From Bacteroidales bacterium (GTDB taxonomy: Bacteria; Bacteroidota; Bacteroidia; Bacteroidales; UBA932): a stretch of DNA of 48,816 nucleotides. Positions within the stretch are counted from its first letter, which is position 1. The number at the start of each line of letters is the position of its first letter. Location: NCBI GenBank assembly GCA_030695025.1, contig JAUYTX010000040.1:1-48816 (forward strand), in the 5' to 3' direction. Below the pieces are notes generated by a model. The model saw only the letters and a program-made list of their open reading frames with translations, was not told where the DNA came from and did not search any database. The translations under genes and the position numbers were made by a program. Below, piece after piece: positions 2,550 through 48,816 of the stretch.

Positions 2550-5279
2550 TTAGTAACAAATTGGAGAGTATGGACACCATTCACATGTTCTGGTTCCTCT
2601 GTTTCTGTAGAAACTTATTTCAGAGCTAAATATTTCTTTAACAAGCAATTTAAGCCTCTCCTTATATTGCTCTACCTCTGTCTCATCTACAATTTTCTCA
2701 TCACCACGGTTATTTTTGCTGATGTTTCTCAATATGTACGGAGCTAGTTTAACAGGTTGCTTCTCATCCAGAAGCATAGCATAGAACAACATTTGGAATG
2801 CTATCTTGTTTTTATTGAATTTTTTCTGGTCAAACAGCTCTTCAAGATTTGAGTATTTTATCTCTCCTTTGCCGGTCTTGTAATCAACTATTCGCTTAAT
2901 TCCTTCAATCCTGTCAATTCTGTCAATAAAGCCCTTAAGTGCAACCACTTTGCCATCTTCAAGAATAAGCTTTGATATGACTCTTTTTTCTGAATCTGTA
3001 TACTCAAATGGGGCAAGTGACAAATCAAATTCGAGAGTAAGTTGGACATACTTGTGAATAAGCCTTTTAATCAGCAAATTATAACCTTTAAACTCTCTTA
3101 AATTTCGATATTCTAAAAATCCTGCCTCTATAAGTTTTTCGATTTGAGAAGAGTCTTTTATCAGGGTTGTAATCTCATCTTTTGATAACCTTTTGCCCTT
3201 GAAACCAGAATAGAGTTTCTCCATTACAAAGTGGAATATTGAACCAAAATCATTTGATTCAATCTCCTCAGATATCTCATCATCCTCTTTTACACCCTCT
3301 ATATAAGAACAATAAAACTGCAACGGACAGAGAATATATGAACCCAAAGCAGTGGCAGAAAGCGATTTAGCCTGCTCTCCGAAAAATATTTTTTCAACCT
3401 TTTCTATGACCTGAGAGCTCTTTGCAATTTCAACTATTTTTTCAGGAGCACATTTTACTCTAAACGACGCCCTGCTCTCTTTTAAAGGAAGTTTATAATG
3501 ATATTTCATCTGCATGATAAATCTGCTCATCTCCCCGGTGTTGAGACCCTCAGTGCGTGTATCATATAGTAACCAGACGTTTTTTGCCCTGTATATTGAT
3601 CTGTAAAAATGGTATGAGGCAATTGCATCGTTGTACTCTTTAACCGGTAGAGAAAAACCTCTCCTAAGGTTGTAGGGGATAAATGAATTGGATTGTGAAG
3701 ATGATGGAAATGTCCCCTCATTTAATGAGCAGTATATAACATTATCAAAATCAAGTGCACGGGTTTCCAAAACACCCATAATTTGCAGACCCGATAATGG
3801 TTCTCCTTTGAAAGGAATTGAAACAGTAGATAGAATTTGGCTTAAAAGCCTGCCGAATGTGTCAAGCGACATAGGAATAAGTATCCCCGCTATTCTTGTC
3901 AGGGATACCCTTATATGATATATAAACTCCTTCTCAATTCCTTTGGTTTGAGAATTTTGCACTACAAAATCAAGTATCTCAAGAAGTTTAAAGCAAAAGT
4001 CTTTGGCAGAGGTATCCTTGCTTAGGTTTTCGGAAAAAATAAGTTTTAAAAGATGATCGTCTTCAAAGAAAGAGGGAGCGACATAAATCATATTCTGAGA
4101 TACAATTTTGTTGAGATGCTCCCTGGCACTCTCTTTACATATCAATTTTATATAATTATGTTTTAAAATGGGGAGAACTCTTTTGTAATAGTATGCCCCT
4201 TTGTCTTTAGTCAGCTCTGTAATGTACTCTATCAATGACATGATTGGAGATCCTTTGAGTGGATAACCCATAGTAACATTAACATCGGGGTATTTTTCGG
4301 GTATTGAATGAAGCATTGGCAGCAACATCTTTTCATCAGGAAGAACAACTGCATTTTCAATGGCATTTTCGCTGTTTTCCAATATTTCAGTTACGATTTT
4401 TGTTTGCATAACTGCCGATGAAACTCCGATTATTTCAATTTGGGGTATCTCGTATTTCTCGAAAAAAATCTCTCTTTTCGATGGGAAATTGGAGATATTT
4501 CCGTTCATAAAATGAGAGGCTTTATTTGAACTGTCAGTTATAAACTCTCCAAAATAGTCCCAGTAAAAATCTGCCTTGCCTTGTTTTTTGAGTTCTTTGA
4601 GGATCTTGTTTTCACACTCATTTAGTGCGTTTAACCCTACGAAAACAATTTCACGGTACTCGCTAAGTTTGTCAAGCAAAATGGTATTTTCTGCAACATG
4701 TCTGAAAATCATACCCTCGTAGCCACTCTTTTCAACCACCAACTCCTCTCTGAATTTAAGATACAACGGGTACAGGACCTGCCATAATGCTCTGAATTTC
4801 TGTTTTTTCTCACTCTCCCCGATAGGTAAAAAACCCTCCCAAAAACTCATAACTGCCTCAAGTTGTGTTTGAGTTAAAAAAGAGTAATCACTCTCAATCT
4901 CCTTAAGTTCTTTAATGTTAGCAAACAGAAGTCGTGCATCAGCAAGAAATTTGTCTGTATCGTTGAAATCATCAATAATTACATCTCCCCAGAAGACGAA
5001 ATCATCAAAACTCTCTTCGGTCCCTGAAATCTCTTTGTATATTCTGTATAATTTAAAGAGGGAATCCAGCCTGTCTGCCTCCCTCAAACCTGAGACAGAT
5101 ATAATAAAGTCTTTAATTGTGAATATTTTAGGAGAGAAAATAGGAGAATTTATCAGCTCTCCCAGATACTTTTGAAAGAAAAGTCCTGATCTCCTGTTTG
5201 GAAAGACAAAACACAACTCCCGTATTTTCGCCCCTTCGTCTTTATAAAAACGGGAAGCGATTGTTTGTAAAAATTTCAT
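2550..5279 (-). CDS. AddB-like PD-(D/E)XK nuclease
   Basis: A 909-residue protein partnering the AddA-like helicase directly downstream. The N-terminus has FVFPNRRSGLFFQKYL, typical of the inactivated helicase part of AddB. The C-terminal third is a PD-(D/E)XK nuclease: SATALGSYILCPLQFYC near residue 665, FGSIFHFVMEKLY, then GFIDRIDR and IVDYKTGKG carrying the catalytic Asp and the D-x-K pair. The final CEWCPYSPIC (Cys-x2-Cys-x5-Cys) plus the cysteine in ILCPLQFYC match the four ligands of the AddB 4Fe-4S staple. Role: double-strand-break resection with AddA. It follows pgi by 23 nt and probably belongs to the gpsA-pgi-addB-addA transcript. The fold is well supported; exact orthology to Bacillus AddB is inferred. 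Confidence 0.87.
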   Translation of the reverse strand: MKFLQTIASRFYKDEGAKIRELCFVFPNRRSGLFFQKYLGELINSPIFSPKIFTIKDFIISVSGLREADRLDSLFKLYRIYKEISGTEESFDDFVFWGDVIIDDFNDTDKFLADARLLFANIKELKEIESDYSFLTQTQLEAVMSFWEGFLPIGESEKKQKFRALWQVLYPLYLKFREELVVEKSGYEGMIFRHVAENTILLDKLSEYREIVFVGLNALNECENKILKELKKQGKADFYWDYFGEFITDSSNKASHFMNGNISNFPSKREIFFEKYEIPQIEIIGVSSAVMQTKIVTEILENSENAIENAVVLPDEKMLLPMLHSIPEKYPDVNVTMGYPLKGSPIMSLIEYITELTKDKGAYYYKRVLPILKHNYIKLICKESAREHLNKIVSQNMIYVAPSFFEDDHLLKLIFSENLSKDTSAKDFCFKLLEILDFVVQNSQTKGIEKEFIYHIRVSLTRIAGILIPMSLDTFGRLLSQILSTVSIPFKGEPLSGLQIMGVLETRALDFDNVIYCSLNEGTFPSSSQSNSFIPYNLRRGFSLPVKEYNDAIASYHFYRSIYRAKNVWLLYDTRTEGLNTGEMSRFIMQMKYHYKLPLKESRASFRVKCAPEKIVEIAKSSQVIEKVEKIFFGEQAKSLSATALGSYILCPLQFYCSYIEGVKEDDEISEEIESNDFGSIFHFVMEKLYSGFKGKRLSKDEITTLIKDSSQIEKLIEAGFLEYRNLREFKGYNLLIKRLIHKYVQLTLEFDLSLAPFEYTDSEKRVISKLILEDGKVVALKGFIDRIDRIEGIKRIVDYKTGKGEIKYSNLEELFDQKKFNKNKIAFQMLFYAMLLDEKQPVKLAPYILRNISKNNRGDEKIVDETEVEQYKERLKLLVKEIFSSEISFYRNRGTRTCEWCPYSPICY

Positions 5280-5302
5280 CTGAAATATCTGAATTACAGA
5301 GA

Positions 5303-6646
5303 TTATAATCTTCTCCTGAGCTTATCTGCAAGTTGTTCAAACCCGGGTTTATCCAGAAGTGCAAACATGTTCTTTTTGTAGTCTTCAACTCCCTGCTGGT
5401 CAAACGGATTAATATCAAGCATATATGCACTGATACCACATGCAAATTCAAAGAAATAGAACAGTGACCCAAGATTGAATTCATTCAATCTCTCAACAGT
5501 TATGGCAATATTTGGTACTCCTCCGTCTATATGTGCCAACCTTGTTCCAATTTCGGCCATTTTATTGCACTGTTCAACAGTCTTTCCTGATAAAAAATTG
5601 AGGCCGTCAAGGTTATTCTCGTTAGCACTTATATCAAAATCTCTGTCTGTATCAGCAATACTCAAAACTGTTTCAAAAATTATCCTCTCACCATCCTGTA
5701 TGTACTGACCCATTGAGTGAAGGTCTGTTGTGAAGTTGACAGATGCCGGAAAGATGCCCTTTCCCTCCTTGCCCTCGCTCTCTCCGAACAGTTGTTTCCA
5801 CCATTCAGAAAAGTAAGCCAATTTTGGATGGTAATTTACAAGAATCTCAATTTTTTTCCCATTGCCATAAAGTAAATTTCTTACGGCAGCATAACGAATA
5901 ACAGGGTTATCGGCACCACCTTTTTTGCAAAGAGTTTCCATTCTGACGGCCCCGGCAATCAGCTCCCTGATATTGAATCCGGCAACGGCAATCGGTAGAA
6001 GACCCACCGGTGTTAGTACAGAGTATCTGCCTCCAACATCATCAGGTATTACAAAGGTTTTATAACCTTCTGTATCTGAGAGTGATTTAAGAGCACCTTT
6101 GGAAGAGTCGGTTACTGCAACTACTCTTTTGGCAGTACCTGTTTTTCCATATTTCTTCTCATAGTGTTCTTTTATTATTCTGAACGCAACCGCCGGTTCT
6201 GTTGTTGTTCCTGATTTAGAAATCACAATCGTTGCCGACTCTCTCTTTTCAAGCAGATCCATTAACTCAGAAATATACTCACCTGAAAGATTTTGTCCTG
6301 CAAACACAATCGCAGGCCACTCGCGGTTTCCAAGCTGAAGACCAAAACTATGTGACAATGACTCAATTGCAGCTTTTGCCCCAAGATATGAACCTCCAAT
6401 TCCTATTACGACAACAACCTCAGCGATTTTTTTCCACTCGTAGGCTAAAATTTCAATCTCGCTAATTAGTTTTTCATCTGTCTGAGAGGGTAGGTTTAAC
6501 CATCCGGTAAACTCTGCACCCCTGCCTTTGCCTGATAAAAGCGTGTCAAATGACGAGAGTGCATCCGTAACCGATTCGGCATACTCCTTATCTGTAAAGA
6601 AGGGCTTAGCACCTTTTAAATCTATTTGGATAACATTCTCTATCAT
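5303..6646 (-). CDS. pgi: glucose-6-phosphate isomerase
   Basis: A 447-residue cytoplasmic enzyme interconverting glucose-6-phosphate and fructose-6-phosphate. The length fits the short bacterial form of the family. Diagnostic segments are VVVIGIGGSYLGAKAAIE, the phosphate-binding VISKSGTTTEPAVAFR, GGRYSVLTPVGLLP (family signature) and FPASVNFTTDLHSMGQY. The gene starts 5 nt after the gpsA stop and is followed by the AddB-like gene at 23 nt, giving a four-gene minus-strand cluster. No promoter is evident in the 5-nt gap, so expression is probably from the promoter in front of gpsA. Nothing unusual is seen in the catalytic segments. Confidence 0.97.
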   Translation of the reverse strand: MIENVIQIDLKGAKPFFTDKEYAESVTDALSSFDTLLSGKGRGAEFTGWLNLPSQTDEKLISEIEILAYEWKKIAEVVVVIGIGGSYLGAKAAIESLSHSFGLQLGNREWPAIVFAGQNLSGEYISELMDLLEKRESATIVISKSGTTTEPAVAFRIIKEHYEKKYGKTGTAKRVVAVTDSSKGALKSLSDTEGYKTFVIPDDVGGRYSVLTPVGLLPIAVAGFNIRELIAGAVRMETLCKKGGADNPVIRYAAVRNLLYGNGKKIEILVNYHPKLAYFSEWWKQLFGESEGKEGKGIFPASVNFTTDLHSMGQYIQDGERIIFETVLSIADTDRDFDISANENNLDGLNFLSGKTVEQCNKMAEIGTRLAHIDGGVPNIAITVERLNEFNLGSLFYFFEFACGISAYMLDINPFDQQGVEDYKKNMFALLDKPGFEQLADKLRRRL

Positions 6647-6651
6647 AGCAA

Positions 6652-7665
6652 TTACTGTAAATTTTCTGAAAGCTGTTTAATTACATAAGCAGGATATTTT
6701 TGCTCATAGAGGATCTTGTACATTGCCTCAGCAATAGGCATATGAACATTATATTTTCTATTTATCTCATAAATGCATTTTGTTGCATAGTAACCCTCTG
6801 CAACCATATTCATTTCAACCTGTGCAGACTGAACTGAGTAGCCCTTTCCGATCATGCTTCCAAATGTTCTGTTACGGCTGAATTGAGAATAACACGTAAC
6901 CAGAAGATCACCAAGGTAAGCAGAGGTTGATGTTCTCCGTGCAGAGTCCGGATGGGATGCGTGAAGAAAATCTCTCATCTCATGAAAGCTACTGGTTATC
7001 AAAACTGCCATAAAATTATCACCATATGAAAGTGAATGGCAAACACCTGAAGCGACTGCGTAGATGTTTTTAAGTACTGCAGCGTATTCTACCCCATAAA
7101 TATCTGTTCCCGGAACTGTCTTGATATAATTGCAGGCAAAAACATCGCACAGAGATCTGGCAACCTCTATATATTTACTTGAAAGTGTAAGATATGAGAG
7201 TTTTTCCATGGCTACCTCTTCGGCATGGCACGGTCCGCTAACGATTCCAATTTTACCGAAAGAGATGTTAAATTTTACATGGAAGTACTCGGCAATGGTT
7301 ATGTTTTCTTCAGGAATCATCCCCTTTATTGCACTGATAATGAACTTATCCTTGAAGGAGCGTTTTATGAGTGCAGCTTCGGAAAGGAAATATGCTGAGG
7401 GGACGCAGAATACGAGCACATCAGCCGAATCAATAATCTCATTAATGTCTGAGCTGAAGATTATCCTCTCCGGATCAAATTTAAAAGCTTGAAGGTAATA
7501 AGGGTTGTGATAGGATTTTTTCATCTGGTCTATCATCTCGTCATCCCTTACGTACCAGGATATCTTCTCCTGGTTGTTAAGCAACAGTTTGGAAAGGGCC
7601 GTTGCCCAGCTGCCACTCCCAATCATGGCATATCTGAGGCCCTCCCTTTCAAAAAAATTATCCAT
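6652..7665 (-). CDS. gpsA: NAD(P)H-dependent glycerol-3-phosphate dehydrogenase
   Basis: A 337-residue enzyme that reduces dihydroxyacetone phosphate to sn-glycerol-3-phosphate, the backbone of phospholipids. The dinucleotide-binding loop reads MIGSGSWATALSKLL, a slight variant of the usual GxGxWGTAL because Ala replaces Gly. Other family segments are VFCVPSAYF, ISAIKGM, GIVSGPCHAEEVA (substrate site), AVLKNIYAVASG with the catalytic Lys, and RNRTFG. It is the first gene of the gpsA-pgi-addB-addA cluster. A TATATTTG box lies about 35 nt upstream of the start and is divergent from the mqnC promoter. The ATG at 7665 gives a standard N-terminus. Confidence 0.96.
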   Translation of the reverse strand: MDNFFEREGLRYAMIGSGSWATALSKLLLNNQEKISWYVRDDEMIDQMKKSYHNPYYLQAFKFDPERIIFSSDINEIIDSADVLVFCVPSAYFLSEAALIKRSFKDKFIISAIKGMIPEENITIAEYFHVKFNISFGKIGIVSGPCHAEEVAMEKLSYLTLSSKYIEVARSLCDVFACNYIKTVPGTDIYGVEYAAVLKNIYAVASGVCHSLSYGDNFMAVLITSSFHEMRDFLHASHPDSARRTSTSAYLGDLLVTCYSQFSRNRTFGSMIGKGYSVQSAQVEMNMVAEGYYATKCIYEINRKYNVHMPIAEAMYKILYEQKYPAYVIKQLSENLQ

Positions 7666-37344: not shown

Positions 37345-37746
37345 GGGGATGTTTTGGTTTTGACAGCATTCACAATCGGAAGATAAGCACGTCGAGCGTT
37401 GTATCCCCGGCTCGTTAATCCCGGAGTACAAGCCATAACTGGCAACAATAACTATGCACTCGCTGCGTAATTTAAGCATAGCTTAAAACGCTTAATTGTG
37501 GCAGGCCAGGTCCTGTTATAACGAGTATCCCGCCGGGTCTTTAAGCCCTCTATGAAACGGCAAATGGGGTATCATTCAAGAGTGGATGCGGAGGCGGACT
37601 CCTTTAAAGTCTCCTAAGTACTCAGAGGATAAGCCGTGAGTGGCCTGCCTTTCGGCAGCTCGCAGACGAAAATTGTAGAAAGGATAAACGTGTAGAAGCT
37701 CTTTGGATGGTTTGTTTGGACGGCGGTTCGAGTCCGCCCATCTCCA
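37345..37746 (+). ncRNA. ssrA: transfer-messenger RNA (tmRNA)
   Basis: A 402-nt tmRNA for ribosome rescue. The 5' end GGGGATG pairs with CATCTCC at 37739-37745 to make the 7-bp acceptor stem, followed by discriminator A. The T-arm is GGCGG-TTCGAGT-CCGCC at 37723-37739. The tag reading frame is 37441-37470 (GGC to TAA) and encodes GNNNYALAA, ending in the expected ALAA degradation signal. The CCA end is not encoded: after the discriminator the DNA reads CAAAA. The region between tag and T-arm contains GC-rich inverted repeats consistent with pseudoknots. The partner SmpB is not in this window. Confidence 0.96.
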
Positions 37747-37747
37747 C

Positions 37748-38373: not shown

Positions 38374-39210
38374 ATGAATCTAAAAGATTTAAAACCCATA
38401 TTCCTGATTTTTCTTACAATCTTGTTGTTTTCAACCGGATTAAAATCTCAGGAGTTGATAGTCATTGAATCAGCAAATCTTAAGTGTAATGACTCTGTAT
38501 TGGTATTTACTCCAAAGGGTTATTGCCCGGATAAAGCAGGTGAAACTCCTGCCCTGTATCTTCTTCATGGCTGGAGCGGGAATTACCGCAACTGGGGCGA
38601 TAAGGCAGACATTCAGGCAATGAGTGATAAATATGGTTTTATTATCATAACTCCTGATGGTTTTTACAACAGTTGGTATCTGAACAACGTAGATAAGGAC
38701 AAAATGCAATGGAGAACCTTCTTTGACGAGGAGTTGTATCCGCTTATCAAATTAAAATTCAACCTCAACCCCGAAAAGACCTTTATAACCGGTTTAAGTA
38801 TGGGCGGACATGGAGCCATTAACATCTATATGGATGACACTACAAGGTTCAAAGCGGCAGGCAGTATGTCCGGGGTTTTAAACCTACACGACACAAGACT
38901 CAAAGAGACTCAGATGGCAGAGGTTCTGGGCCCATATGCCAAAGAGAATGGCCAATATGACCTCCACTCAGCAGTTAACCGCCTTGAATCAATAAAGGGA
39001 GGCAAAGATATTCTGCTAATCAGCTGTGGCGCACAAGATGGACTTGCCCAAAGCAGCAGAGATTTTGCGAAACGTTGTGACGAACTCAAAATCCCAAATA
39101 TGCTTATGATGAGCCCCGGAGTTCATAGCTGGCCATACTGGATATTCATGCTTGACCAACATCTGTTCATCTTTAACAGAATCAACAAAGGGGTTGGTTT
39201 GGGTTACTAA
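38374..39210 (+). CDS. secreted esterase of the S-formylglutathione-hydrolase/feruloyl-esterase type
   Basis: A 278-residue alpha/beta hydrolase (Esterase D family) with a signal peptide of about 26 residues. YLLHGWSGNYRNWG supplies the oxyanion region. The nucleophile is in TGLSMGGHGA, the acid is probably in SCGAQDGL and the histidine in SPGVHSWPYW. Related secreted enzymes de-esterify plant polysaccharides or small esters; the substrate is not clear here. The last 4 nt overlap the end of the convergent S9 peptidase gene. Confidence 0.87.
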   Translation: MNLKDLKPIFLIFLTILLFSTGLKSQELIVIESANLKCNDSVLVFTPKGYCPDKAGETPALYLLHGWSGNYRNWGDKADIQAMSDKYGFIIITPDGFYNSWYLNNVDKDKMQWRTFFDEELYPLIKLKFNLNPEKTFITGLSMGGHGAINIYMDDTTRFKAAGSMSGVLNLHDTRLKETQMAEVLGPYAKENGQYDLHSAVNRLESIKGGKDILLISCGAQDGLAQSSRDFAKRCDELKIPNMLMMSPGVHSWPYWIFMLDQHLFIFNRINKGVGLGY

Positions 39211-41780
39211 TTCATCCAAACGGGTCTTTTTGAACCCATAAGGTAGTAATCAAAATATTCATCCATACGACGGGACCAGTCAACGGCTATGTCCCGTTTT
39301 TTTATGTTGTGACCGTCACCTTTATAATTGAACATCCAAACCTCCTTTCCAAGCCTTTTAAGCCCAAGAAAGAGCTCAAGACCCTGAGAATATGGCACAG
39401 CTTCGTCACCGTCACTGTGTCTGGATAAAAGAGGAGTAGTCACCTTGTCAAGAAAGAATATTGGTGAGTTCTGAATATAATTTTGCTGTCTGTCCCAAAG
39501 TGTCCCGCCAATTCTGCTTTGTGATGATTCGTACATGAACATTCTGGGTTTTCCCGCTCCTGCCCTCAGTCCGGTATAGGCCGATGTCATATTAGCAACG
39601 GCTGTTTCGGAGCAGGCACATTTGAATATGTCTGTCTGAGTTATGAGATATGCCACCTGATATCCGCCCCAGCTATGCCCCTGAACACCAATTCTTTCGG
39701 GGTCAGCAACTCCCTTATCAATAAGGTGTTTGGTGCCGCTCTCCACAATATTCAGACAACTCTGTCCCGGCCACCCAATCTCATATCTGATATCCGGCAT
39801 AAAGACAACATAACCTCTGCTTACAAACATGGCAGGATTAATTGTTGAGGTGGTTGGAGCCGGAGGATAAAACATGAATATATCCTGACTCATTGTCTCA
39901 TAGAAATAGACAATCATAGGATATTTTTTTGCAGGGTCATAATCTTCCGGAGTGTACAGAATGCCTGTCTGTTTTGCACCTTTAGAATCGCTCCAGGTTA
40001 TATATTCTGTTTTGCCGAATTTATAATCTTTAGTTTGTTCATTCAAATCTGTAAGTCTCTCCTTAAGAGTGATATCGGGACCAACCAACCAGTAGTCAGG
40101 TGCCTGAGAAAAGTTCTCGATTTGAATTATATAGTTACTCTTTCCAGATCTTTTTACAAATTTAAATTTTTGTGGCCCTTCGGTTAGCAATTCTGGTTTT
40201 TTGCCCGGTTGCAGTGTATAAAAACCAGAGTACATATTATTGTAATTTACAGACTCCAGCAGAATCTCTTTTTTAAGGTCAACCCCCTCATCTCTTGTTC
40301 TTCCTCCCGAAATATTTATCACTTTAAACCTGATATTGTTCTCTCTGCCATAACCGCCTGTGATACATACTGCATCTTTTGAGCTGTCAAGGGGTAGTGC
40401 CCATACATCAAATTCATCATATACCAGAAAGTATCTATTATCGGCAGTCATACCTGCTTGCCCATACGGAGAGGCCGGCTGTGGTTTGTCAAAACTCAAA
40501 TTCTTAATGGGGTATGGTAATGCCGAGGAGATGTCTCTCTTTTCCAGGGTATTCAGATTAGTTACAATCCACGCCTCTTTGTCATATTCATATGTAAAGA
40601 GGTTGTCTGTGGTGTTTGATATCGCAAAGCTCCCCATAAAGGCCTCAAAAAGAAGCTTATATTCGCCGGTTTTTCTGTTTACAAAGTAGAAGTCTCTTGG
40701 AAGGGGGTCTTCCCAGAGATCTGTGTACATATAGGGTTTGTTGTCAAGTTCAAAACCGAAATTTGAATTATCGTCTGGCATAAGGAAAACCCCTTTTCCG
40801 TAGGATAGTTGCACAAGCTTACCGGAAGAGGGATCATACAGACATTTAAGCTGGTTGGCAAAAATACTCTCCCTGGTTCTCCTCTGAGATGGGAGTAAAG
40901 TGTCGTTCCATCGCCAAAGTTCATATTCATAGATCGGCTTCTCTTTTTTAACCTCAGCAGCCTCCTCTTTAGCCGGGTTTACCTCAAATTTGTAATAATC
41001 AAAGTTTTTGGAAAACTGAATACCCTTTTTGAAATTGAACACCGTTCCTGAAGGTAATTTCTTCTCATCCAGGCCGGCTTCATTCAATCTCTTCTTTTTG
41101 AGGTCATACAATACAGCCTTAACTCCGGTCTTACCCAATGAATCATCAGCCTGAAAGAAGATAAGGGTCTCACCATTTTTACCAACCGAAATTTCACTCA
41201 AATGCTTTTCTGTTATTAGCAAAGTGTCACGTTTAAACCGGTTCTTACCTTGGGAAAAGATCCTAAGAAGTGCTCTCTTATTATTTGAGGATGATATAAG
41301 CAGCATCTCTCCTGATGGAGAATAGGTTGCATATGAAACATTTACTGCAGAATCTATCCTCGCTGTTGAAATATCGGTGTAGTATAAAATTTTACCCTCA
41401 TACCAGGCAATAAAGGGGGAATCATCCGAAATCTCATATTTTTTAGAAACGCCAACTCTTTTTGTCTCACCTGTAGCAGCATTGACTGTAAAAAGAGTGT
41501 CTTTAACAAGATAGAGAGCAGCCTTTTGTCTGTTAAAAAACTTAGCATCCTTACCTCCCTTTACTGTTAATGCAAAAGAGATATTTCTGATCTTAATATC
41601 AAGAGTTGATTTATCGGAAAAGCTTTCATATTCAGTAAAGGTAATGTTGGCATCGTCAGAGACCAGAAAGCTTTTAATGGTTTTCCAGGAGTCATAAACA
41701 GATTCGTCCAGAACCCTTTTCTGTGCCTCCGCAAACACAAAAGAGAGAACGGCAATTGTTAAAAAAAACATTTTTTTCAT
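39207..41780 (-). CDS. large secreted S9-family peptidase
   Basis: A protein of about 857 residues. The frame extends to a TTG at 41795, but I chose the ATG at 41780 because it starts a normal signal peptide (MKKMFFLTIAVLSFVFAEAQ). A long N-terminal region (about 20-600) has WD-like beta strands, and the prolyl-oligopeptidase-type hydrolase domain is at the end: Ser in GVQGHSWGGYQ, Asp in SRHSDGDEAVPYSQ and His in GDGHNIKK. It is probably a periplasmic oligopeptidase or aminopeptidase. It is separated from susD by a terminator, so it is not part of that operon. Confidence 0.9.
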   Translation of the reverse strand: MKKMFFLTIAVLSFVFAEAQKRVLDESVYDSWKTIKSFLVSDDANITFTEYESFSDKSTLDIKIRNISFALTVKGGKDAKFFNRQKAALYLVKDTLFTVNAATGETKRVGVSKKYEISDDSPFIAWYEGKILYYTDISTARIDSAVNVSYATYSPSGEMLLISSSNNKRALLRIFSQGKNRFKRDTLLITEKHLSEISVGKNGETLIFFQADDSLGKTGVKAVLYDLKKKRLNEAGLDEKKLPSGTVFNFKKGIQFSKNFDYYKFEVNPAKEEAAEVKKEKPIYEYELWRWNDTLLPSQRRTRESIFANQLKCLYDPSSGKLVQLSYGKGVFLMPDDNSNFGFELDNKPYMYTDLWEDPLPRDFYFVNRKTGEYKLLFEAFMGSFAISNTTDNLFTYEYDKEAWIVTNLNTLEKRDISSALPYPIKNLSFDKPQPASPYGQAGMTADNRYFLVYDEFDVWALPLDSSKDAVCITGGYGRENNIRFKVINISGGRTRDEGVDLKKEILLESVNYNNMYSGFYTLQPGKKPELLTEGPQKFKFVKRSGKSNYIIQIENFSQAPDYWLVGPDITLKERLTDLNEQTKDYKFGKTEYITWSDSKGAKQTGILYTPEDYDPAKKYPMIVYFYETMSQDIFMFYPPAPTTSTINPAMFVSRGYVVFMPDIRYEIGWPGQSCLNIVESGTKHLIDKGVADPERIGVQGHSWGGYQVAYLITQTDIFKCACSETAVANMTSAYTGLRAGAGKPRMFMYESSQSRIGGTLWDRQQNYIQNSPIFFLDKVTTPLLSRHSDGDEAVPYSQGLELFLGLKRLGKEVWMFNYKGDGHNIKKRDIAVDWSRRMDEYFDYYLMGSKRPVWMN

Positions 41781-41826
41781 GAGTAAAAATTTCAAAGAGG
41801 TTAATTAAAGTAGTTCTCAAAAGTAA

Positions 41827-41882: not shown

Positions 41883-43403
41883 CTATGCGGGATTTTGAAC
41901 CATGTGTGGATTGGTTTCAATTTCAGCCCCTGGTATCATCCATGTCCAGTTTTTACTACCTGCTGGTTCATATAGTTTGATTGCAATTGAGCCAATATGT
42001 CCTCCTGCACCCTCTACTGACGCTTCAGGTCTTACAAGAGGAAGGTTTAGTCTTTTCAAATCAGTAAAGTTTCTGCCTTCACCCCAAAGTTCAATTCTTC
42101 TTTGAATTAAAATTTCATCTATTAATGCTTGTCCACTGTTTTCAGATCTTGTGTATTGAGTATCTCTATTTTTCGCAAGCAGATAAAGTACGTCTTTAGC
42201 TTGTTCTTCTTTACCTGTTTGTCTGGCAAGAGCTTCGGCTTCTATCAGATACATCTCCGCAACTCTTATCCATGGAAAATCTCCGCGACTGTCAGATGTT
42301 GACACAGCTTTAAACTTTGAATTCATATAGTTATACCTTACACCACCTGGAGGTACTGCCGGTAGGCCGGTAGCAACCGCATTGGGATGCCAGAAAGACT
42401 TTCTTACATCTGTTGGTGAAATCTTGTCATACAGATCTTTCACAATAGATTTTGGACTCGTCCTAATAACTCCTGAGTTAAAATTGTGAGAGAGATACGC
42501 ATAGAATGAGAAGAAGTACATTGATTGATCTTCCTGGACATATGAAGCCCACATAAACTCAGGATTGCTTATCTTACTGTACCCCTCCTGGTGTTGAGCA
42601 AAAGACATAAAACTGAATCCCTGTCTTGCAGCATTTGCAGCGGTTGAAGCTAACTCCCAGTTACCCTGAACCAATGCAACCTGAGCTTGTATTGCTTGTG
42701 CTACAGATTTGTTAATATGAGATTTGTTAGCTCTGGCATAGCCCTGAAGATTATCTATGGCAGCGATAAGGTCAAGGTTGATCTTTGTATAAACCTCTTC
42801 AACAGTGTTTCTGGCCTTACCTTCAAGAGTTACCTCTTCCATGTATGGAACGCCAAGCTGACTATTCTGTCCGCCCGGAACATATCTTTCGGCATAGAGC
42901 TGAACTAGCATAAAGTGCGCCCATGCTCTGTATGCAAGAGCCTGGCCTTTTATATGCTTTTTCTGATTTTCAAAATCAGCAATGTTGTCTACATTTGTTA
43001 TTCCATCAATTTTTGTAAGAATTTGGTTGGCATTACCAATTAATCTATACAAGTTTGTCCAGTATAAGACAGCACCCGATCTTTCATTTCTGTGATCAAT
43101 CCACTTGTAAACATTTAAGTTATGAGTATTACCTCCGGTATTAAAAAGCAGATCAGTACCTAAAAAATCTATGTGTCGGAGTAAACCATCCATCCCTCCG
43201 TGAGCCTGAATTGAGTTGTACTGGATGTACATCGATCTGTGAAGACCGTTAACCGCACCCCATACACTCTTAACTGACTGAAAAACACTGGTTGCATCTA
43301 CCTGGTCTGTTGGTTTAGTATCTAAAAAATCTTTCGAGCAAGAGGCAGGAATTATTAGTATTCCAGCAATAAGAGATAATATTGTTAAATTATATTTTTT
43401 CAT
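41883..43403 (-). CDS. SusD/RagB-family nutrient-binding lipoprotein
   Basis: A 506-residue outer-membrane surface lipoprotein. The lipobox IPASC places lipidation at Cys22, followed by SKDFLDTKPTDQV, a typical SusD N-terminus. TPR-like helices with YRAWAHFMLVQLYAERY are diagnostic, and the C-terminal SusD domain includes FPWIRVAEMYLIEAEALARQTG and RRIELWGEGRNFTDLKRL. It caps the SusC channel and captures substrate. It lies 13 nt after susC in one transcript. No glycoside hydrolase or polysaccharide lyase is nearby, so the ligand (glycan, peptide or other) cannot be inferred. Confidence 0.96.
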   Translation of the reverse strand: MKKYNLTILSLIAGILIIPASCSKDFLDTKPTDQVDATSVFQSVKSVWGAVNGLHRSMYIQYNSIQAHGGMDGLLRHIDFLGTDLLFNTGGNTHNLNVYKWIDHRNERSGAVLYWTNLYRLIGNANQILTKIDGITNVDNIADFENQKKHIKGQALAYRAWAHFMLVQLYAERYVPGGQNSQLGVPYMEEVTLEGKARNTVEEVYTKINLDLIAAIDNLQGYARANKSHINKSVAQAIQAQVALVQGNWELASTAANAARQGFSFMSFAQHQEGYSKISNPEFMWASYVQEDQSMYFFSFYAYLSHNFNSGVIRTSPKSIVKDLYDKISPTDVRKSFWHPNAVATGLPAVPPGGVRYNYMNSKFKAVSTSDSRGDFPWIRVAEMYLIEAEALARQTGKEEQAKDVLYLLAKNRDTQYTRSENSGQALIDEILIQRRIELWGEGRNFTDLKRLNLPLVRPEASVEGAGGHIGSIAIKLYEPAGSKNWTWMIPGAEIETNPHMVQNPA

Positions 43404-43415: not shown

Positions 43416-46400
43416 TTAGAAATTTATGTTTACACCAAAAGTGAAGATTCTGTTAAATCCTACATCATTCAATATGTTACCGTCAAAATTTTGAGTTGGA
43501 TCAATACCTTTTCTAGCTGTAATAAGAGCAAGGTTTTCGGCAGAAGCATAAACTTTCAAAGCTTTGATATTTAGAGACTTTAAAGCATCCGGATTGAAGC
43601 TATAGGCAATATTTATGTTCCTGAGCGACAGGTAAGACGAACTTACAAGCCACCTGTCTGACGAAGCATTAAAGTCAGTTGTTCTTGCATTGTCCATTCT
43701 TGGAACATTGGTAATCTGTCCCGGAGTTGTCCATCTGTTTAGAATATCAACATGTTTTGCAGATCCCATCCCTCCGGTTGACATTAGAGAGGAATAGCCA
43801 TAGTCAAAGGTTTTTCCTCCAATTGAGTAGTTAAACTGAACAGATACATCAATTCCATAAATTTTAAATATTGGCGTAACAGAACCGAAAACCTTTGGGA
43901 TGCTTGTACCTGACCTGCCATATTTTGCTTTTGCTTGGTTAGATGTAACAAGGGTACCATCTCCAAGTGTTTTACAATCAGCTTCATTCCATTGCATAAG
44001 ATATGCTCCATTGGCATCTTTTGCATCATTGAAATAATAGAGAGCGTCTCCGTTTGACGGATCTACGCCATACCACTTTCTAAGCCAGTAGTCATATATT
44101 GATCCCCCTTCAACTCTTTTATATAGAGGAACATCAAGTGAATTATTGGCAATTATTCCTAACTCTCTATTTGCTTCAGGTAACGCTTTTATTCTGTTTT
44201 TATATGTAGTAGCATTTAAATTTAAGTTAAAACTGAAATTTTTAACATCAATGATACCTGCTGTGAGATCTAACTCCCATCCTCTATTATATACAACACC
44301 TATGTTTCTGTCTTGTGAAACATATCCGGTTGTTGGAGCTAATGGCATTGAGAAGATAAGGTCTTTAGACTCTTTGTTAAACCAGTCTATGCTACCTCTC
44401 ATTCGATTGCTAAATAGATTAAACTCAAGACCAATGTCAGTTTGAACTGTGGTTTCCCACTTGAGCAAAGGATTTCCGGGTGCAGTATCCTGAATATACC
44501 CAAGTTCAGCAGCATTGTTTCTGTAGCGATAAAGAATCTGCCATGCATAATTGCTGATACCTCCATCGTTACCGTTTAGTCCGTACGAAGCTCTGAGTTT
44601 TAAATAGTCAACCCATTTTTGACCAACCATAAAATTCTCTTTGTCAATTCTCCAGCCACCACCAACTGACCAAAAATTACCCCATCTTACATCGTTTGAA
44701 AACTTTGATGAACCATCTCTTCTGAAAGATGCTTCGGCAGTATATCTGCCATTGTCATATGAGTATGTTGCTCTCGACAGGTATCCCTCCACTCTGTGTC
44801 TGTCAAGGTAGGAGTATAGGCTGTTTGTTGTTGTGAAGTTTATAAGTTCGGTATTTCCAGAGATAATCTCTCCCTGGCGAAATCCATTCAAATAATTGTA
44901 CTCATTTTTATAACTTTCATGAGCAGCCATGACATTGAAATCATGTTTTGCAATAGTTTTTTCGTATGTTAACATTTGAACAGATGTCCATGTGTAGCGC
45001 AGAGAACTCTCTTTTCTTGAGCGTCCCTGAGGTGCTCCATCTCCAACTAATGAGTTTTCATACTCAGAGTTCAAATAGTTGTTTATATCAAAAGAGTGTT
45101 GAAGTTTAAATTTGAAATCTTTTAAGAAAGTAAACTCAGCGTAGGCTCTCGACTGAATTGTGTTTCTCTGAAAATCTCTTATATTAAGCAAATGTTCTGC
45201 AATTGCATGTCTGCCGTTATTATGAGCTCTTGATTTGTGAGTAACACCATTCTCAACAACACTTGCACCAAGGTCCCAAAGTTTATTGCCGTTATCATCG
45301 GTAACGTATTCACCATTTGTTCGGTTGTGCCTATATACAGGGTAAATCGGCCCCATAGATCTGGCAAAATAGATTGGGTTTGCGTAACCTAAATGGTTTG
45401 CAGTATTTGCAGATGACGATGTGTTATATGAAGCATTTAGGTTGACTCCAAATTTTAACCAGTTTTTAGGGGTAAAATTAATGTTTGCTCTTGCAGATAT
45501 CCGGTCATAATTGGTTTTTTTCATCCATCCGTTATCGGTAGTATAACCAACAGAGAGGTAGTAGTCAGCCGCTTCTGTTCCACCGCTAGCAGAGATCATT
45601 GCATCAGTTCTGTGTCCAACTCTTTCAATAGGCGAATACCAGTCCAGATCATTGCCCCAAAGTAACGATGTTGCAGCAGGGTTTAATTTTCCGTCTGTAT
45701 CAACAACCTGGTCATTTGCAATTCCTCTGAAAGGGTTGTATCCTAAATTTGAGACAATTCCATTTGCAGTTGCACCTGATGCAAGAAGAGTTGCTTCTGC
45801 TTTTGTTCTATCTGTGTTTATTAAACTGTTTCTTAGCGATTCCCACATTACAGGATAGTAGTCAAATGCATCAATTCTATCATACTCAGGCAATCCTCTT
45901 TGTGAAAAACCCTGTGTAATGTTTGCAGATACACTTAGCTTCTCTTTTCTACCTTTTTTTGTGGTAATCATAACAACACCATTAGATCCTCTTGAACCGA
46001 ATAGTGCAGTAGAAGCAGCATCCTTAAGAATGTTAATTGACTCGATATCTGCAGGATTGATATTTGCCATTACACCATTGTAAGGTGAACCGTCAAGAAC
46101 TATAAGTGGCTCCGAAGAGTAGTTAATTGAACCAAAACCACGGATTCTTATTGCAGGGTCTGTTCCCGGCTGACCGCTAGCAGTGTTAACCTGTATACCG
46201 GGAGCTGAGCCGGCAAGAGCGGCAAGAGCGTTGGTAACAGGTCTCTTTTCAATACTTGCCGAATTTACAGAGGCAATTGAACCGGTAACGCTTGATTTTT
46301 TGGCAGTACCATAAGCTACCATTACAACCTCGTCCAGAGATAGTGCATCAAATTCAAGTTGTGAGTTGACTACGTTTCTACCATTAACCGGAATTTCTAA

Positions 46401-46640
46401 AGTTTTATAGCCGATAAAGCTAAAAACAAGAGTTGCTTCAGCGGGTGCATTAATTGTGTATGAACCGTCATCGGCAGACGTTGTACCGGTAGTAGAACCT
46501 TTAACCATTATGGTTACATAAGGCATTGGAGCCCCGGTTCCTACCTCGGTAACCGTGCCGGAAATTTTCATATTCTGAGCAGTCAGAATATGGCATGCAA
46601 CAAATACAAATGTTGCGATTGTTAAACAAATTTTTTTCAT
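43416..46640 (-). CDS. SusC/RagA-family TonB-linked outer-membrane transporter
   Basis: A 1074-residue outer-membrane importer. The signal peptide (about 1-21) precedes a carboxypeptidase-regulatory-like domain (ISGTVTEVGTGAPMPYVTI). The TonB plug follows (KSSVTGSIASVNSASIEKRP, IRIRGFGSINYSSEPLIVLDG, NILKDAASTALFGSRGSNG), then a 22-strand-type barrel ending NRIFTFGVNINF. There is no N-terminal STN or anti-sigma-interacting extension, so signalling through a classical sigma/anti-sigma pair is not suggested by the protein. It is first in the susCD pair, and 153 nt upstream lies the Cas12f-like gene on the same strand. Confidence 0.97.
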   Translation of the reverse strand: MKKICLTIATFVFVACHILTAQNMKISGTVTEVGTGAPMPYVTIMVKGSTTGTTSADDGSYTINAPAEATLVFSFIGYKTLEIPVNGRNVVNSQLEFDALSLDEVVMVAYGTAKKSSVTGSIASVNSASIEKRPVTNALAALAGSAPGIQVNTASGQPGTDPAIRIRGFGSINYSSEPLIVLDGSPYNGVMANINPADIESINILKDAASTALFGSRGSNGVVMITTKKGRKEKLSVSANITQGFSQRGLPEYDRIDAFDYYPVMWESLRNSLINTDRTKAEATLLASGATANGIVSNLGYNPFRGIANDQVVDTDGKLNPAATSLLWGNDLDWYSPIERVGHRTDAMISASGGTEAADYYLSVGYTTDNGWMKKTNYDRISARANINFTPKNWLKFGVNLNASYNTSSSANTANHLGYANPIYFARSMGPIYPVYRHNRTNGEYVTDDNGNKLWDLGASVVENGVTHKSRAHNNGRHAIAEHLLNIRDFQRNTIQSRAYAEFTFLKDFKFKLQHSFDINNYLNSEYENSLVGDGAPQGRSRKESSLRYTWTSVQMLTYEKTIAKHDFNVMAAHESYKNEYNYLNGFRQGEIISGNTELINFTTTNSLYSYLDRHRVEGYLSRATYSYDNGRYTAEASFRRDGSSKFSNDVRWGNFWSVGGGWRIDKENFMVGQKWVDYLKLRASYGLNGNDGGISNYAWQILYRYRNNAAELGYIQDTAPGNPLLKWETTVQTDIGLEFNLFSNRMRGSIDWFNKESKDLIFSMPLAPTTGYVSQDRNIGVVYNRGWELDLTAGIIDVKNFSFNLNLNATTYKNRIKALPEANRELGIIANNSLDVPLYKRVEGGSIYDYWLRKWYGVDPSNGDALYYFNDAKDANGAYLMQWNEADCKTLGDGTLVTSNQAKAKYGRSGTSIPKVFGSVTPIFKIYGIDVSVQFNYSIGGKTFDYGYSSLMSTGGMGSAKHVDILNRWTTPGQITNVPRMDNARTTDFNASSDRWLVSSSYLSLRNINIAYSFNPDALKSLNIKALKVYASAENLALITARKGIDPTQNFDGNILNDVGFNRIFTFGVNINF

Positions 46641-46672
46641 TGAAATTAGTTAAGTATTTAGATGTTTAGAAT

Positions 46673-46680
46673 CAAATTTA
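46673..46680 (-). promoter_or_regulatory. -7 box of susC, no matching -33 element
   Basis: The minus strand reads TAAATTTG, an exact TAnnTTTG, 32 nt before the susC ATG. No TTTG lies 19-21 nt further upstream; an imperfect inverted repeat (46682-46708) occupies that space. The arrangement looks like a weak promoter that needs an activator. Confidence 0.45.
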
Positions 46681-46681
46681 T

Positions 46682-46708
46682 AAAGACATGGCCCTATCAT
46701 CTGCCTTT
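46682..46708 (-). repeat. imperfect inverted repeat upstream of susC
   Basis: On the minus strand AAAGGCA-(GA)-TG pairs with CA-TGTCTTT around a 7-nt loop ATAGGGC. It directly abuts the susC -7 box. It could be an operator-like dyad or, if transcription starts further upstream, an RNA hairpin in the leader. Confidence 0.45.
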
Positions 46709-46793
46709 AAGACAGTGAGAGAGTCTATTGCAATACTGAAAGTGTTAATTGATATTCTAAATGAAATAGAGAAATGTTAAAAACCGGACAGAA

Positions 46794-47876
46794 TCAGCCA
46801 GCCTTCTCTACTATTTTAATTCCGAACAAATTTGCCTTATATGCCAATTTTTGCTTTAGGCCGTAGTATCCCCAATTTCTAAGTAAAAATGAGTTTTTCA
46901 CAGCCTCCTTCTCTTTTTGGTTCTGGTTTATCAGATTTATGGTACTACATCTGTTTTTCACTGCAAAATCGATTAGTAATCTTGTGTAAGTGTGAAGTTT
47001 CGTATTGATGTAATCTTTCTCCTTACCATTGAAGTTGTCAAGAGCCTTGGTTTTTCTCTTTCTTCCTCTGCCTCCATTTGTGTAAGCAGAGTTTATCTGA
47101 GCTCTCTTTAACGCCTTCTGAATCTGAATCCTTCTGTGAAGATACTCCTCCTTATTTCCTATCATTTTTTTTTCGTTTCGAAAAAAAGCAACAATAGGTG
47201 TTTCTATTGATAAGTGAGCATCAATAAAATTTTCTTCACTAAGCGAAAGCTCTATTCGTGGCATTTCGACACTTAAGAGAAGAAATAACTTTCTTTTATT
47301 TTCACTGATTTGAAGTGAAGATGTGCAAATTTTAATCTCCTTTGTCAGGCATTTGTTAAGCACATAGTTGTTGTTGCTTCTGTCTCTTCCCAACACCGTG
47401 ACAAACGGAATCCCAAACAGAGAAAAATGGTAACTATTTGTATCTTCTGTATATACCAGATTTCTTAACGATGCTCCTCCAAAAGGTATGGGGATATTAC
47501 CGAATGACTTTAGTGAGGCTGTTCCTTTAAATATCTTGCCCCTTATCTCCTTGTAGCTGTTGGTGACATTTTGCTGTAATGCATTTGCCACGTCCATAGG
47601 AACCTGTCCTTTAAGCCTTTCCGATAGAAGAACATATGATGCAGACCCCTCTTTTATGCTCTCTCCTTTTGCTCCGATTATACCGAGTTCAATCTTAGTA
47701 TCTTCTGTTATAAACTTGTAATACTTAAGTCTGTCGATACTATATAAATAGGAAATAAGTTCATTTGCGCCATTGCGCACCAGATAACCCCACGAATGAA
47801 TCTGTTTTAAATATTCGCTTTTGAGTTCTGTCTCATTTTCGTCAATGACAATCTCTATCTTTCTGGTCAAGATCAT
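46794..47876 (-). CDS. nuclease-dead, C-terminally truncated Cas12f/TnpB-family protein (putative RNA-guided regulator)
   Basis: A 360-residue protein whose N-terminal 200 residues (TRKIEIVID, WGYLVRNGANELISYLY, NIPIPF) look like the recognition part of small Cas12f proteins, and whose C-terminal part is RuvC-like: NGGRGRKRKTKALDNFNGKE, KEKDYINTKLHTYTRLLIDFAVKN and LLRNWGYYGLKQKLAYKA. Where active enzymes have GVDLG or GIDLG, this one reads DAHLS, so His221 replaces the RuvC-I Asp. Where they have VLEDL it reads INLINQ, so Ile316 replaces the RuvC-II Glu. The protein ends at GIKIVEKAG, before the zinc ribbon and RuvC-III Asp. It therefore probably binds RNA and DNA without cutting. No transposase or IS ends are present. 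A structured RNA candidate lies upstream and susCD lies downstream on the same strand. The regulatory role is inferred; superfamily membership is well supported. Confidence 0.85.
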   Translation of the reverse strand: MILTRKIEIVIDENETELKSEYLKQIHSWGYLVRNGANELISYLYSIDRLKYYKFITEDTKIELGIIGAKGESIKEGSASYVLLSERLKGQVPMDVANALQQNVTNSYKEIRGKIFKGTASLKSFGNIPIPFGGASLRNLVYTEDTNSYHFSLFGIPFVTVLGRDRSNNNYVLNKCLTKEIKICTSSLQISENKRKLFLLLSVEMPRIELSLSEENFIDAHLSIETPIVAFFRNEKKMIGNKEEYLHRRIQIQKALKRAQINSAYTNGGRGRKRKTKALDNFNGKEKDYINTKLHTYTRLLIDFAVKNRCSTINLINQNQKEKEAVKNSFLLRNWGYYGLKQKLAYKANLFGIKIVEKAG

Positions 47877-47890
47877 ATTATTTCTATAAT

Positions 47891-47898
47891 CAAAATTA
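47891..47898 (-). promoter_or_regulatory. -7 box for the Cas12f-like gene
   Basis: The minus strand reads TAATTTTG, 14 nt before the ATG at 47876, just downstream of the candidate guide RNA. The protein may thus be transcribed separately from the RNA. Confidence 0.4.
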
Positions 47899-47904
47899 GA
47901 TTTG

Positions 47905-48025
47905 TCTATTGTACTTAATTACTAACCGCTGCATCCAAATTGGTTTATGAGTGCTCTTTCACCTCACATTAAGGGCATACAGCTGCCCCAAAACTTATAA
48001 TGAGTTTTATTTCCTTTATTATTTA
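47905..48025 (-). ncRNA. candidate guide RNA for the Cas12f-like protein
   Basis: The minus strand shows a run of structures with no protein-coding explanation: hairpin AAAACT/AGTTTT (48008-47990), hairpin GGGCA/TGCCC (47988-47973), linker TTAATGT, hairpin TGAGGTG/CACTCA (47966-47948, one bulge), then CCAA/TTGG and the end GGATGCAGC (47936-47928). The order and the AUGCAGC end resemble what I recall of Cas12f guide scaffolds, which end in AUGCAAC just before the spacer. The spacer would then start at 47927 with GGTTAGTAATTAAGTACAAT. A -7 box TACATTTG precedes it at 48039-48032, giving a start near 48025. The 3' end and exact spacer boundary are uncertain, and no terminator is seen. Confidence 0.55.
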
Positions 48026-48031
48026 CGATGC

Positions 48032-48039
48032 CAAATGTA
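48032..48039 (-). promoter_or_regulatory. -7 box for the candidate guide RNA
   Basis: The minus strand reads TACATTTG (TAnnTTTG), placed so that transcription would start about 15 nt before the first hairpin. There is no coding start directly downstream, which supports a non-coding transcript. No perfect -33 TTTG is present. Confidence 0.42.
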
Positions 48040-48093
48040 TTCATGATATTTTCCCTGGAAAAAGAAAACAACTTAAACGTGTAGTTTTTGGGT

Positions 48094-48124
48094 GTTGTAA
48101 TAGCAGTTTGAATTGTTAATTTTG
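48094..48124 (+). promoter_or_regulatory. promoter of the serine hydrolase gene
   Basis: A TAATTTTG box at 48117-48124 is preceded by GTTG at 48094-48097 with 19-nt spacing, close to the Bacteroidetes -33/-7 consensus. It lies 28 nt before the ATG and is divergent from the guide-RNA promoter. Confidence 0.45.
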
Positions 48125-48152
48125 TTTTAACATTTTAATATTTTCTAATACA

Positions 48153-48816
48153 ATGCGAAAATTACTCTCTCTTTTAGTAGTGTCTGTCGCTTTTTCCTGC
48201 AACACTCAGAGAATAAATAATATTAAATCAAAGACAGCTGAAATTGCCGATTCTGCCAATATTCCTGTGATTCAGGTAGCCTTTAAAAACCAAAAAGAGT
48301 TTATATCATTTGAATTATCGCAATCTGACACATTAATAGCATCAGCAGATGAAAATACTGTTTTCCAGGCAGCTTCACTAAGCAAACCAATCTTCTCCTA
48401 TATAGTCTTTCTGTTGTCAGAAAGAGGGGTCATTGATCTGGATGTACCTTTGGCAGAGTATACAAGCATTCAGAGGTTTGAGAATAGAGAATGGGCTTCA
48501 AAAATCACTGCACGAACTGTTTTAAGCCATCAAACCGGACTCCCCAACTGGGCAACATCGCCATCATCTGAGGAGTGGCCTTCATCTGTCGTCAAGTTTA
48601 AATTCAAACCTGATTCTGCATTCAGTTATTCCGGAGAGGGTTATTACCTGCTTCAAAGAGCTGTAGAGGAAATTTCCGGCAAAAGTCTTGAGCAGTTGGC
48701 TATTGAAGAGGTTTTTACTCCTTTTGAGATGCAGCATACAAGTTATGAGTGGAAAGAGGAGTACGACACTCTGGCTGCTGACGGATTTAACAGAGAGGGA
48801 GAGAGCAAGGGCAAAG
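48153..48816 (+). CDS. class C beta-lactamase-family serine hydrolase lipoprotein (3' part missing)
   Basis: The first 221 codons of a frame that runs off the right edge, translated by hand from the ATG at 48153. The N-terminus MRKLLSLLVVSVAFSCN is a lipoprotein signal with Cys16 as likely lipid site. FQAASLSKPIFSYIVF holds the SxxK nucleophile motif (S-L-S-K), TARTVLSHQTGLPNW is typical of the family, and FSYSGEGYYLLQRAVEEISG contains the Tyr-Ser motif with Gly in place of the usual Asn. Such proteins are beta-lactamases, D-amino-acid peptidases or esterases; which one is unclear. It is divergent from the Cas12f-like locus. Confidence 0.88.
   Translation, partial: MRKLLSLLVVSVAFSCNTQRINNIKSKTAEIADSANIPVIQVAFKNQKEFISFELSQSDTLIASADENTVFQAASLSKPIFSYIVFLLSERGVIDLDVPLAEYTSIQRFENREWASKITARTVLSHQTGLPNWATSPSSEEWPSSVVKFKFKPDSAFSYSGEGYYLLQRAVEEISGKSLEQLAIEEVFTPFEMQHTSYEWKEEYDTLAADGFNREGESKGK

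Follow-up and report, generated by a model that had tools for sequence, protein, structure and literature searches.

A nuclease-dead Cas12f with a conserved guide RNA and predicted susC targets in trans in a Bacteroidales genome

Nuclease-dead Cas12f (dCas12f) is known from systems that couple it to sigmaE, an extracytoplasmic function (ECF) sigma factor; these reportedly use a 5′-G target-adjacent motif (TAM), and transcription is said to start downstream of the R-loop, in the direction of the guide. TldR silences the host flagellin while the linked flagellin is made (PMC13418256), and the FopS RNAs of Bacteroides thetaiotaomicron are small RNAs that stand alone and have the RNA-binding protein RbpB as an interaction partner (PMC11697453). 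Here we describe dcas12f, a gene at positions 46794–47876 on the minus strand of a 48,816-base stretch of DNA (the window), which is one whole contig (C86) of a Bacteroidales genome, G000. A putative guide RNA is encoded just upstream of the gene and a susCD pair lies downstream. The sequence evidence indicates that the protein is probably an RNA-guided regulator of SusC genes, and we favour, with moderate confidence, a sigmaE-independent repressor that would act in trans on paralogous susC genes.

The dcas12f gene and its guide RNA

The reading frame runs uninterrupted for 360 residues. Its best solved relative is PDB 9n9c, a ‘Nuclease-deactivated Cas12f’, aligned over residues 4–356 (E=5.8e-65), with the other Cas12f structures, 9nzo and 9nzr, far behind (E about 7e-38). 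Matches to dCas12f and Cas12f come first and those to TnpB later in the list, a ranking that does not fit descent from a transposon TnpB as in TldR. The NCBIfam guided_TnpB model is matched (E=1e-18) with 67.8 bits, under its curated cut-off of 100, and a Pfam search of the protein gave no match. In sequence alignment with an active Cas12f chain, 9nzr, His221 takes the place of the RuvC-I Asp and Ile316 that of the RuvC-II Glu; the final ∼90 residues of 9nzr have no counterpart, as the window protein stops before them. The catalytic RuvC residues of CRISPR-Cas12f nucleases are thus missing. The RuvC-II Glu is absent from all 20 dCas12f proteins aligned, that of the window among them; the RuvC-I Asp survives in L045 alone, and no protein extends more than two aligned residues past the end of the window protein.

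The ratio of non-synonymous to synonymous substitution rates (dN/dS) is 0.061–0.069 in six orthologue pairs; two further pairs are saturated at synonymous sites. The predicted structure, obtained from a 7-row alignment, is poor (mean predicted local distance difference test score 57.6, predicted template modelling score 0.44), and the active-site assignment is taken from the sequence alignment, not from this model; a fold search with the model ranks the dCas12f structures 9n9m and 9n9c first. Alignment to Cas12f and dN/dS together mark the gene as intact and under purifying selection, and its product as a truncated Cas12f with a dead nuclease site. An earlier interpretation of this DNA (the sequence-only reading) had already seen a Cas12f/TnpB homologue with an intact frame, His221 and Ile316 at the catalytic positions and a truncated C-terminus, all of which the alignments bear out, and the dN/dS check that it proposed gives values far from 1. 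It had also noted that neither TnpA nor a CRISPR array lies beside the gene. No TnpA-like open reading frame (ORF) is seen at the locus, insertion sequence ends not having been searched for, and there are no direct repeats of at least 20 bases within 400 bases in positions 44000–48816 of the window or positions 1–7300 of the related loci L028 and L029, from which we take it that no array is present.

The sequence-only reading overlooked the guide RNA, which we place at 47911–47989 (minus strand). When the flanks are compared, each of the nine loci of the genus clade described below shows two conserved blocks in the ∼175 nt that precede dcas12f. The scaffold (GGGGCAGCTG...GATGCAGC, 47928–47989, minus strand) is conserved in all nine, and at its end follows the predicted guide core, the 14-mer GGTTAGTAATTAAG (47914–47927, minus strand), which matches susC leaders and may reach 47908 (...TACAAT). 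The element is single-copy in its own genome. Eight of the nine loci have the identical 14-mer and L034 has one change, and the sequence past the 14-mer diverges between loci.

The boundary between scaffold and guide is drawn by homology. A true CRISPR repeat in L035 ends ..GAGCATACAAC (..CATACAAC) and is followed by unique spacers, and two RNAs of G1091 linked to type VI secretion system (T6SS) genes end ..GCAGC, followed by a guide starting AACTGG; on this basis the window scaffold would end ..GATGCAGC and the guide would read GGTTAGTAATTAAG(TAC...). The alternative of counting the constant GGTTAGTAATTAAG as scaffold was rejected, since it sits behind the homologue of a CRISPR-repeat end and matches susC leaders.

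Elsewhere among dCas12f systems the scaffold is found downstream of the gene, on the side opposite to that in the window. Covariance model R1, derived from the conserved element upstream of dcas12f, detects related RNAs immediately behind the gene, with clear matches in L035, L186 and L187 (E 2e-6 and below) and weak ones in L046, L048–L050 and L188 (E 0.0002–0.02); it gave no match at L045, L047 and L051, whose scaffolds were read by eye. The matches at L046, L048, L049 and L188 (E 0.002–0.02) do not surpass those at L081, L089 and L095 (E 0.002–0.012), loci taken in only for holding the guide stretch, and are counted because they lie right behind dcas12f and look alike by eye. Covariation supports 2 of the 14 predicted pairs of the scaffold fold, which is slight, and the case for an RNA therefore rests on conservation and homology.

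Predicted targets at susC starts

Where would such a guide act? At up to two mismatches it has 18 matches in its own genome, itself included, and three of the 17 non-self matches are antisense and lie 14–15 nt upstream of the ATG of a SusC gene. These predicted targets are the susC leaders on contigs C102 (14/14), C40 (13/14) and C5 (12/14). All three genes are among the ten in the genome that exceed the TIGR04056 family cut-off, eight further weak matches having been left unused. Over the ten leaders the guide scores 14, 13, 12, 10, 9, 9, 9, 9, 9 and 8, and the sum of the top three was reached by one of 20,000 shuffled guides. Predicted duplex energies are −18.0 to −21.5 kcal/mol at the three targets against −4.6 to −11.6 kcal/mol at the other seven leaders, and the best was matched by none of 300 shuffled guides. 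The linked susC leader, in the dcas12f–susC intergenic region (46641–46793, minus strand), fits the guide at 9/14, which is background, like the non-target leaders.

Fifteen further genomes of the genus, searched at up to one mismatch, gave 30 matches, eight of them the guide RNAs themselves. In the seven of these genomes that carry dcas12f, six of nine non-self matches, from five genomes, are antisense and 14–16 nt before a SusC-like start, SusC-likeness being here judged from sequence and partly checked; in G111, G168 and G186 the match spans 16 nt. With its own guide variant, G064 has 2 of 20 non-self matches at susC starts (12/14 each), so that this placement is seen in six of the seven genomes, in G064 weakly. 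Guide-strand G to A is the only kind of mismatch at the C5 and C40 targets of the own genome, at the C5-type susC of G111, G168 and G186 and at G064:C4:264111, a change that would give G-U wobbles if the guide paired with mRNA; the mismatches at G122 C19 and G064 L172 are not wobbles.

Several observations weigh against an RNA-guided repressor of these genes. The reversed guide pattern matches the own genome more often than the guide itself (29 against 18 times, the placement of the reversed-pattern matches being unexamined), so the number of matches is uninformative and it is their position that informs. The same motif occurs in genomes of the genus that lack dcas12f, eight of which have 4 of 13 matches placed likewise; by its distribution the motif therefore belongs to susC leaders of the genus in general and did not arise as a dCas12f site. 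In G180 no susC target turns up at one mismatch or fewer, and the targets in G064 are only weak (12/14), one of them being the linked susC. At the predicted targets in dCas12f-positive genomes, 9 of 12 mismatches, several shared by orthologues, would be G-U wobbles if RNA paired with RNA. The guide start, and hence the TAM, is uncertain by 1–2 nt. No promoter of the guide RNA was identified with the one consensus tried, TTTG-N-TAnnTTTG, whose single match in the window is located elsewhere and is no better than chance. Finally, the control for target orientation, given below, rests on two of seven sigmaE systems.

Lineage, sigma factor and mode of action

Relatives of the protein are sparse. 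The family survey (398 genomes) found 12 genomes with a match at E≤1e-3, nine of them strong (eight genomes of the genus and G110) and three weak, partial and left unused; the phylum survey (395 genomes) found eight at 1e-20, and the order survey (393 genomes) three, the own genome being included each time. G133 and G1091 hold two copies each. In a maximum-likelihood tree of the 20 dCas12f proteins, rooted at the midpoint only and built with TldR and TnpB left out, the nine genus loci form one clade (support 100/100) and the seven sigmaE-linked dCas12f a separate one (100/99). Next to the susC clade stands L035, a dead Cas12f with a CRISPR array, with support (92/91) under the stricter threshold. 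This suggests, without proving, that the origin of the susC clade was a dead Cas12f linked to CRISPR, rather than a sigmaE-coupled form that lost its sigmaE.

The L035 locus (L035:8369–9914, in G110 of the same family) has Met and Val at the RuvC sites and a short array of CRISPR repeats; beyond the array another tracr-like unit is fused to a single repeat end, resembling a natural single guide RNA. No sigmaE-like ORF was found in the L035 stretch, which is a possible evolutionary intermediate. G1091, of the same order, has two dead Cas12f genes without sigmaE (L186:5277–10000 and L187:3181–9104) beside type VI-like genes, namely a ClpB/ClpV-like AAA ATPase and, in L187, also a VgrG-like gene. 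In G853 (L188:5433–6700 onward) a dead Cas12f has a ‘ATTAGTTATGTATTCA...’ repeat array downstream, with no sigmaE-like ORF detected. The IMG/VR viral contigs L189, L190, L191, L192 and L193 encode dCas12f relatives, their active-site residues unaligned; among them a search by hidden Markov model (HMM) gives a sigmaE-like neighbour only in L192, and L191 has a CRISPR-repeat-like unit downstream of the gene.

In each of the seven distant loci dcas12f is immediately preceded by an ECF sigma gene (six were aligned and that of L047 was judged from its ORF; that of L049 seems split across two frames), and the L046 sigma matches the RpoE chain 9n9q_C with E=7e-114. No ECF gene was seen in the ORF lists of the window, L028–L034 and L036, and an HMM scan of the ORFs of L028–L030, L033, L034 and L036 gave no sigmaE match. 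Sigma region 4 of the ECF type is matched 14 times in the own genome, and the best of these candidates reaches at most 49 bits under leave-one-out models of five partner sigmas, against 140–285 bits for the held-out partners. With a six-sequence model the best scores are 51–76 bits in the eight dCas12f-positive genomes of the genus, 47–66 bits in four dCas12f-negative ones and 317–409 bits in genomes with true partners, which the model itself contains; half of the eight, at 72–76 bits, slightly exceed the negatives. The best matches end by position 198 of 269 in seven of the eight, short of the partners' C-terminal extension, and that of G064 ends at 227 with two internal stops. A dCas12f-type sigmaE was thus not found in the eight genomes, and its absence from the own genome, which is 91% complete, is likely, not certain. 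The ECF-sigma partnership that the sequence-only reading had brought in finds no counterpart here, either beside the gene or among the ECF scores. We conclude from these searches that the window protein belongs to the dCas12f family yet stands outside the sigmaE-coupled system, as the defining partner was tested for and not found.

The orientation of the guide also bears on its mode of action. The L046 guide has a target (17/20, after a G) ∼210 bp upstream of its own sigmaE gene and the L049 guide one in G492 (14/20) ∼157 bp upstream of its own, both in the sense direction, in agreement with a transcription start on the downstream side of the R-loop. A local scan of the stretches around the loci yielded the L046 target alone, with none convincing for the T6SS-linked guides, six of the seven sigmaE guides or two L035 spacers. 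The L049 target came from a pattern search of three genomes with six matches, three of them guide RNAs and the other three all in G492, of which only this one was examined. The 5′ G of the reported TAM is present at the L046 target, at L049 only if the guide begins 1 nt further on, and at 12 predicted susC targets only if it begins 2 nt further on; at the weak G064 target an A stands there. The susC-clade guide reads the opposite way from the two sigmaE targets, from the start codon and away from the gene, and for this reason a steric block of susC appears more likely than activation.

In the mechanism that we favour, dCas12f would bind the guide RNA encoded upstream of its own gene and be led by it to the start regions of several susC genes elsewhere in the genome. 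There it would form an R-loop without cutting, and the R-loop would block transcription, perhaps also translation, of the target receptors in trans. The linked susCD pair, whose leader has no site in the window's genome, would stay expressed. The logic would resemble that of TldR, with host flagellin silenced and the linked flagellin made.

Does the guide act on DNA, or on the mRNA? The RNA might pair at the ribosome-binding region of susC as FopS does, with dCas12f stabilising or presenting it. To the C102 leader the guide is antisense without a mismatch, the duplexes predicted at the three targets are strong, and the guide matches close to the start codon, where FopS also acts (PMC11697453); the wobble type of 9 of the 12 mismatches would also suit pairing with mRNA. 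Against this, the RNA has a Cas12f-type guide scaffold and stands beside a conserved Cas12f protein, the known dCas12f complex binds DNA (9n9m is titled as a dCas12f–gRNA–DNA partial R-loop), and the G122 C19 and G064 L172 mismatches are not wobbles. We consider action on the mRNA possible but doubtful.

RNA-guided activation as in the dCas12f–sigmaE systems, with sigmaE provided in trans, would accord with the full-length similarity to the sigmaE-coupled dCas12f and with the 14 region-4 matches of the own genome. It is unlikely, since the genome offers no partner-type ECF by either set of models and the target, at the start codon, points away from susC instead of lying upstream in the sense direction.

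Regulation mainly of the adjacent susCD operon, which was the proposal of the sequence-only reading, is a poorer fit still. The part of that proposal which stands is the domesticated, RNA-guided SusC regulator, through the dead Cas12f, the conserved guide fitting susC and purifying selection; the choice of target is not supported. Linkage to susCD is found in eight of nine loci, the linked leaders fit somewhat better in relatives (11/14 in L030–L032, 10/14 in L033), and in G064 the linked susC is itself a weak predicted target (12/14); cis control is conceivable in such relatives. In the window, L028 and L029, however, the linked leader scores 9/14, no better than most non-target leaders, and the targets predicted for the guide lie at susC genes elsewhere in the genome, so that control mainly of the adjacent operon is probably not the function. 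A target in the dcas12f–susC gap was also considered, the 8-nt CAATAGAC after a G in the window and L029, which needs a guide that begins further on; it was rejected because L028 lacks it and the L035/T6SS boundary puts the guide earlier.

A decaying, functionless CRISPR-Cas12f relic, as the dead active site, the truncation and the missing array might suggest, is very improbable given the low dN/dS in six pairs, a dead truncated form common to all 20 proteins and a guide that is nearly constant while its flanks diverge.

The linked susCD pair and comparison with known systems

Downstream of dcas12f, after 153 bp and on the same strand, comes the linked susC. This susC gene (43416–46640, minus strand; TIGR04056) encodes 1074 residues, 79% identical to the predicted-target SusC at C5, and is followed on the same strand by susD (41883–43403) and an S9-family peptidase gene (39207–41795), which is syntenic in L029 and probably belongs to the same nutrient-uptake locus. 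The contig ends 940 bp upstream of dcas12f, and the region beyond was read as ORF lists from the syntenic loci L028 and L029. The second dCas12f copy of G133 (73%), at L036:2415–4122 on contig C5, has a guide that starts in the same way, but a MarR-family gene and not susCD follows it; a MarR gene 66% identical to it sits upstream of the linked susC in L034. Elsewhere in the window, Rfam at gathering thresholds matched only a transfer-messenger RNA gene (37345–37747, plus strand; tag GNNNYALAA).

The bodies of the linked susCD pairs have a history distinct from that of their leaders. L029 has the same dcas12f (90% in amino acids) and leader as the window, but its linked susCD is 84–86% identical to the C102 pair. 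Between the two loci DNA identity is 84–93% to about +150 of susC, then ∼50%, recovering to 69% in the first 1.1 kb of the peptidase gene after susD; between the window and L028 it drops from 99% to mostly 65–80% over the same stretch. Past the first ∼150–300 bp, susCD pairs at the same dCas12f locus are only 52–76% identical in DNA, against 85–99% for dcas12f, guide RNA, leader region and susC 5′ end. In G122 and G133 a C102-type leader carries a different body (95% mutual identity, 40–41% to C102), and one SusC body type (88% in amino acids, residues 111–490) is found at the dCas12f site in G122 and behind a guide-matching leader in the window's genome. On these comparisons susCD bodies have moved between guided and unguided leaders; the assemblies are draft or metagenomic throughout, so that some chimaeras are possible, though the contigs concerned are 31–101 kb long.

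This movement may be a regulated switch or ordinary receptor recombination. A tentative proposal, to which we give well under even weight, is RNA-guided receptor switching: the dcas12f locus would serve as an expression site with a susC leader that the guide does not recognise, susC copies with the canonical leader would be silenced by dCas12f elsewhere, and bodies would recombine through the conserved 5′ part of susC, the whole having arisen from a CRISPR-linked dead Cas12f apart from the sigmaE branch. If true, this would be a CRISPR-derived control of surface-receptor variation or nutrient hierarchy.

A literature search covering sources other than preprints and most subscription journals gave no report of a susC-directed dCas12f without sigmaE. 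If the repressor that we favour is real, exapted Cas12f would have given the Bacteroidota two or more ways of regulating genes under RNA guidance: activation together with a sigma factor and, without one, control of several members of a nutrient-receptor family. It would join CRISPR biology with the control of SusCD nutrient uptake, where small RNAs at susC starts already matter, and a named guide with three named targets in one genome makes the idea directly testable.

The nearest relatives by descent are the dCas12f–sigmaE systems (PDB 9n9c, 9n9m, 9n9q). These share with the window's system a nuclease-dead, truncated Cas12f of the same size and full-length homology, a related, gene-linked guide scaffold and Bacteroidetes hosts. 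They differ in having a sigmaE partner, none being found for the window's gene, and a guide RNA downstream of the gene rather than upstream, and in their site, which in two of seven systems is sense and upstream; here it is antisense, at −14 to −16 of the susC start, the guide is nearly constant and the proteins form a separate clade. CRISPR-Cas12f nucleases share fold and scaffold ancestry, but the window's system lacks the catalytic Asp and Glu, the C-terminus and the array. With FopS it has in common a single RNA seed matching several susC mRNAs around their start, and predicted repression of receptor genes; unlike FopS, its RNA carries a Cas12f scaffold and neighbours a dCas12f gene, and so is not stand-alone. 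TldR likewise has a dead RuvC, a short guide and a target paralogous to the linked gene, flagellin there and, by prediction, SusC here. Unlike TldR, the window protein is nearer to Cas12f than to the TnpB of transposons; its locus shows no prophage context, and repression, established for TldR, is here only predicted. TldR is nonetheless the nearest functional parallel.
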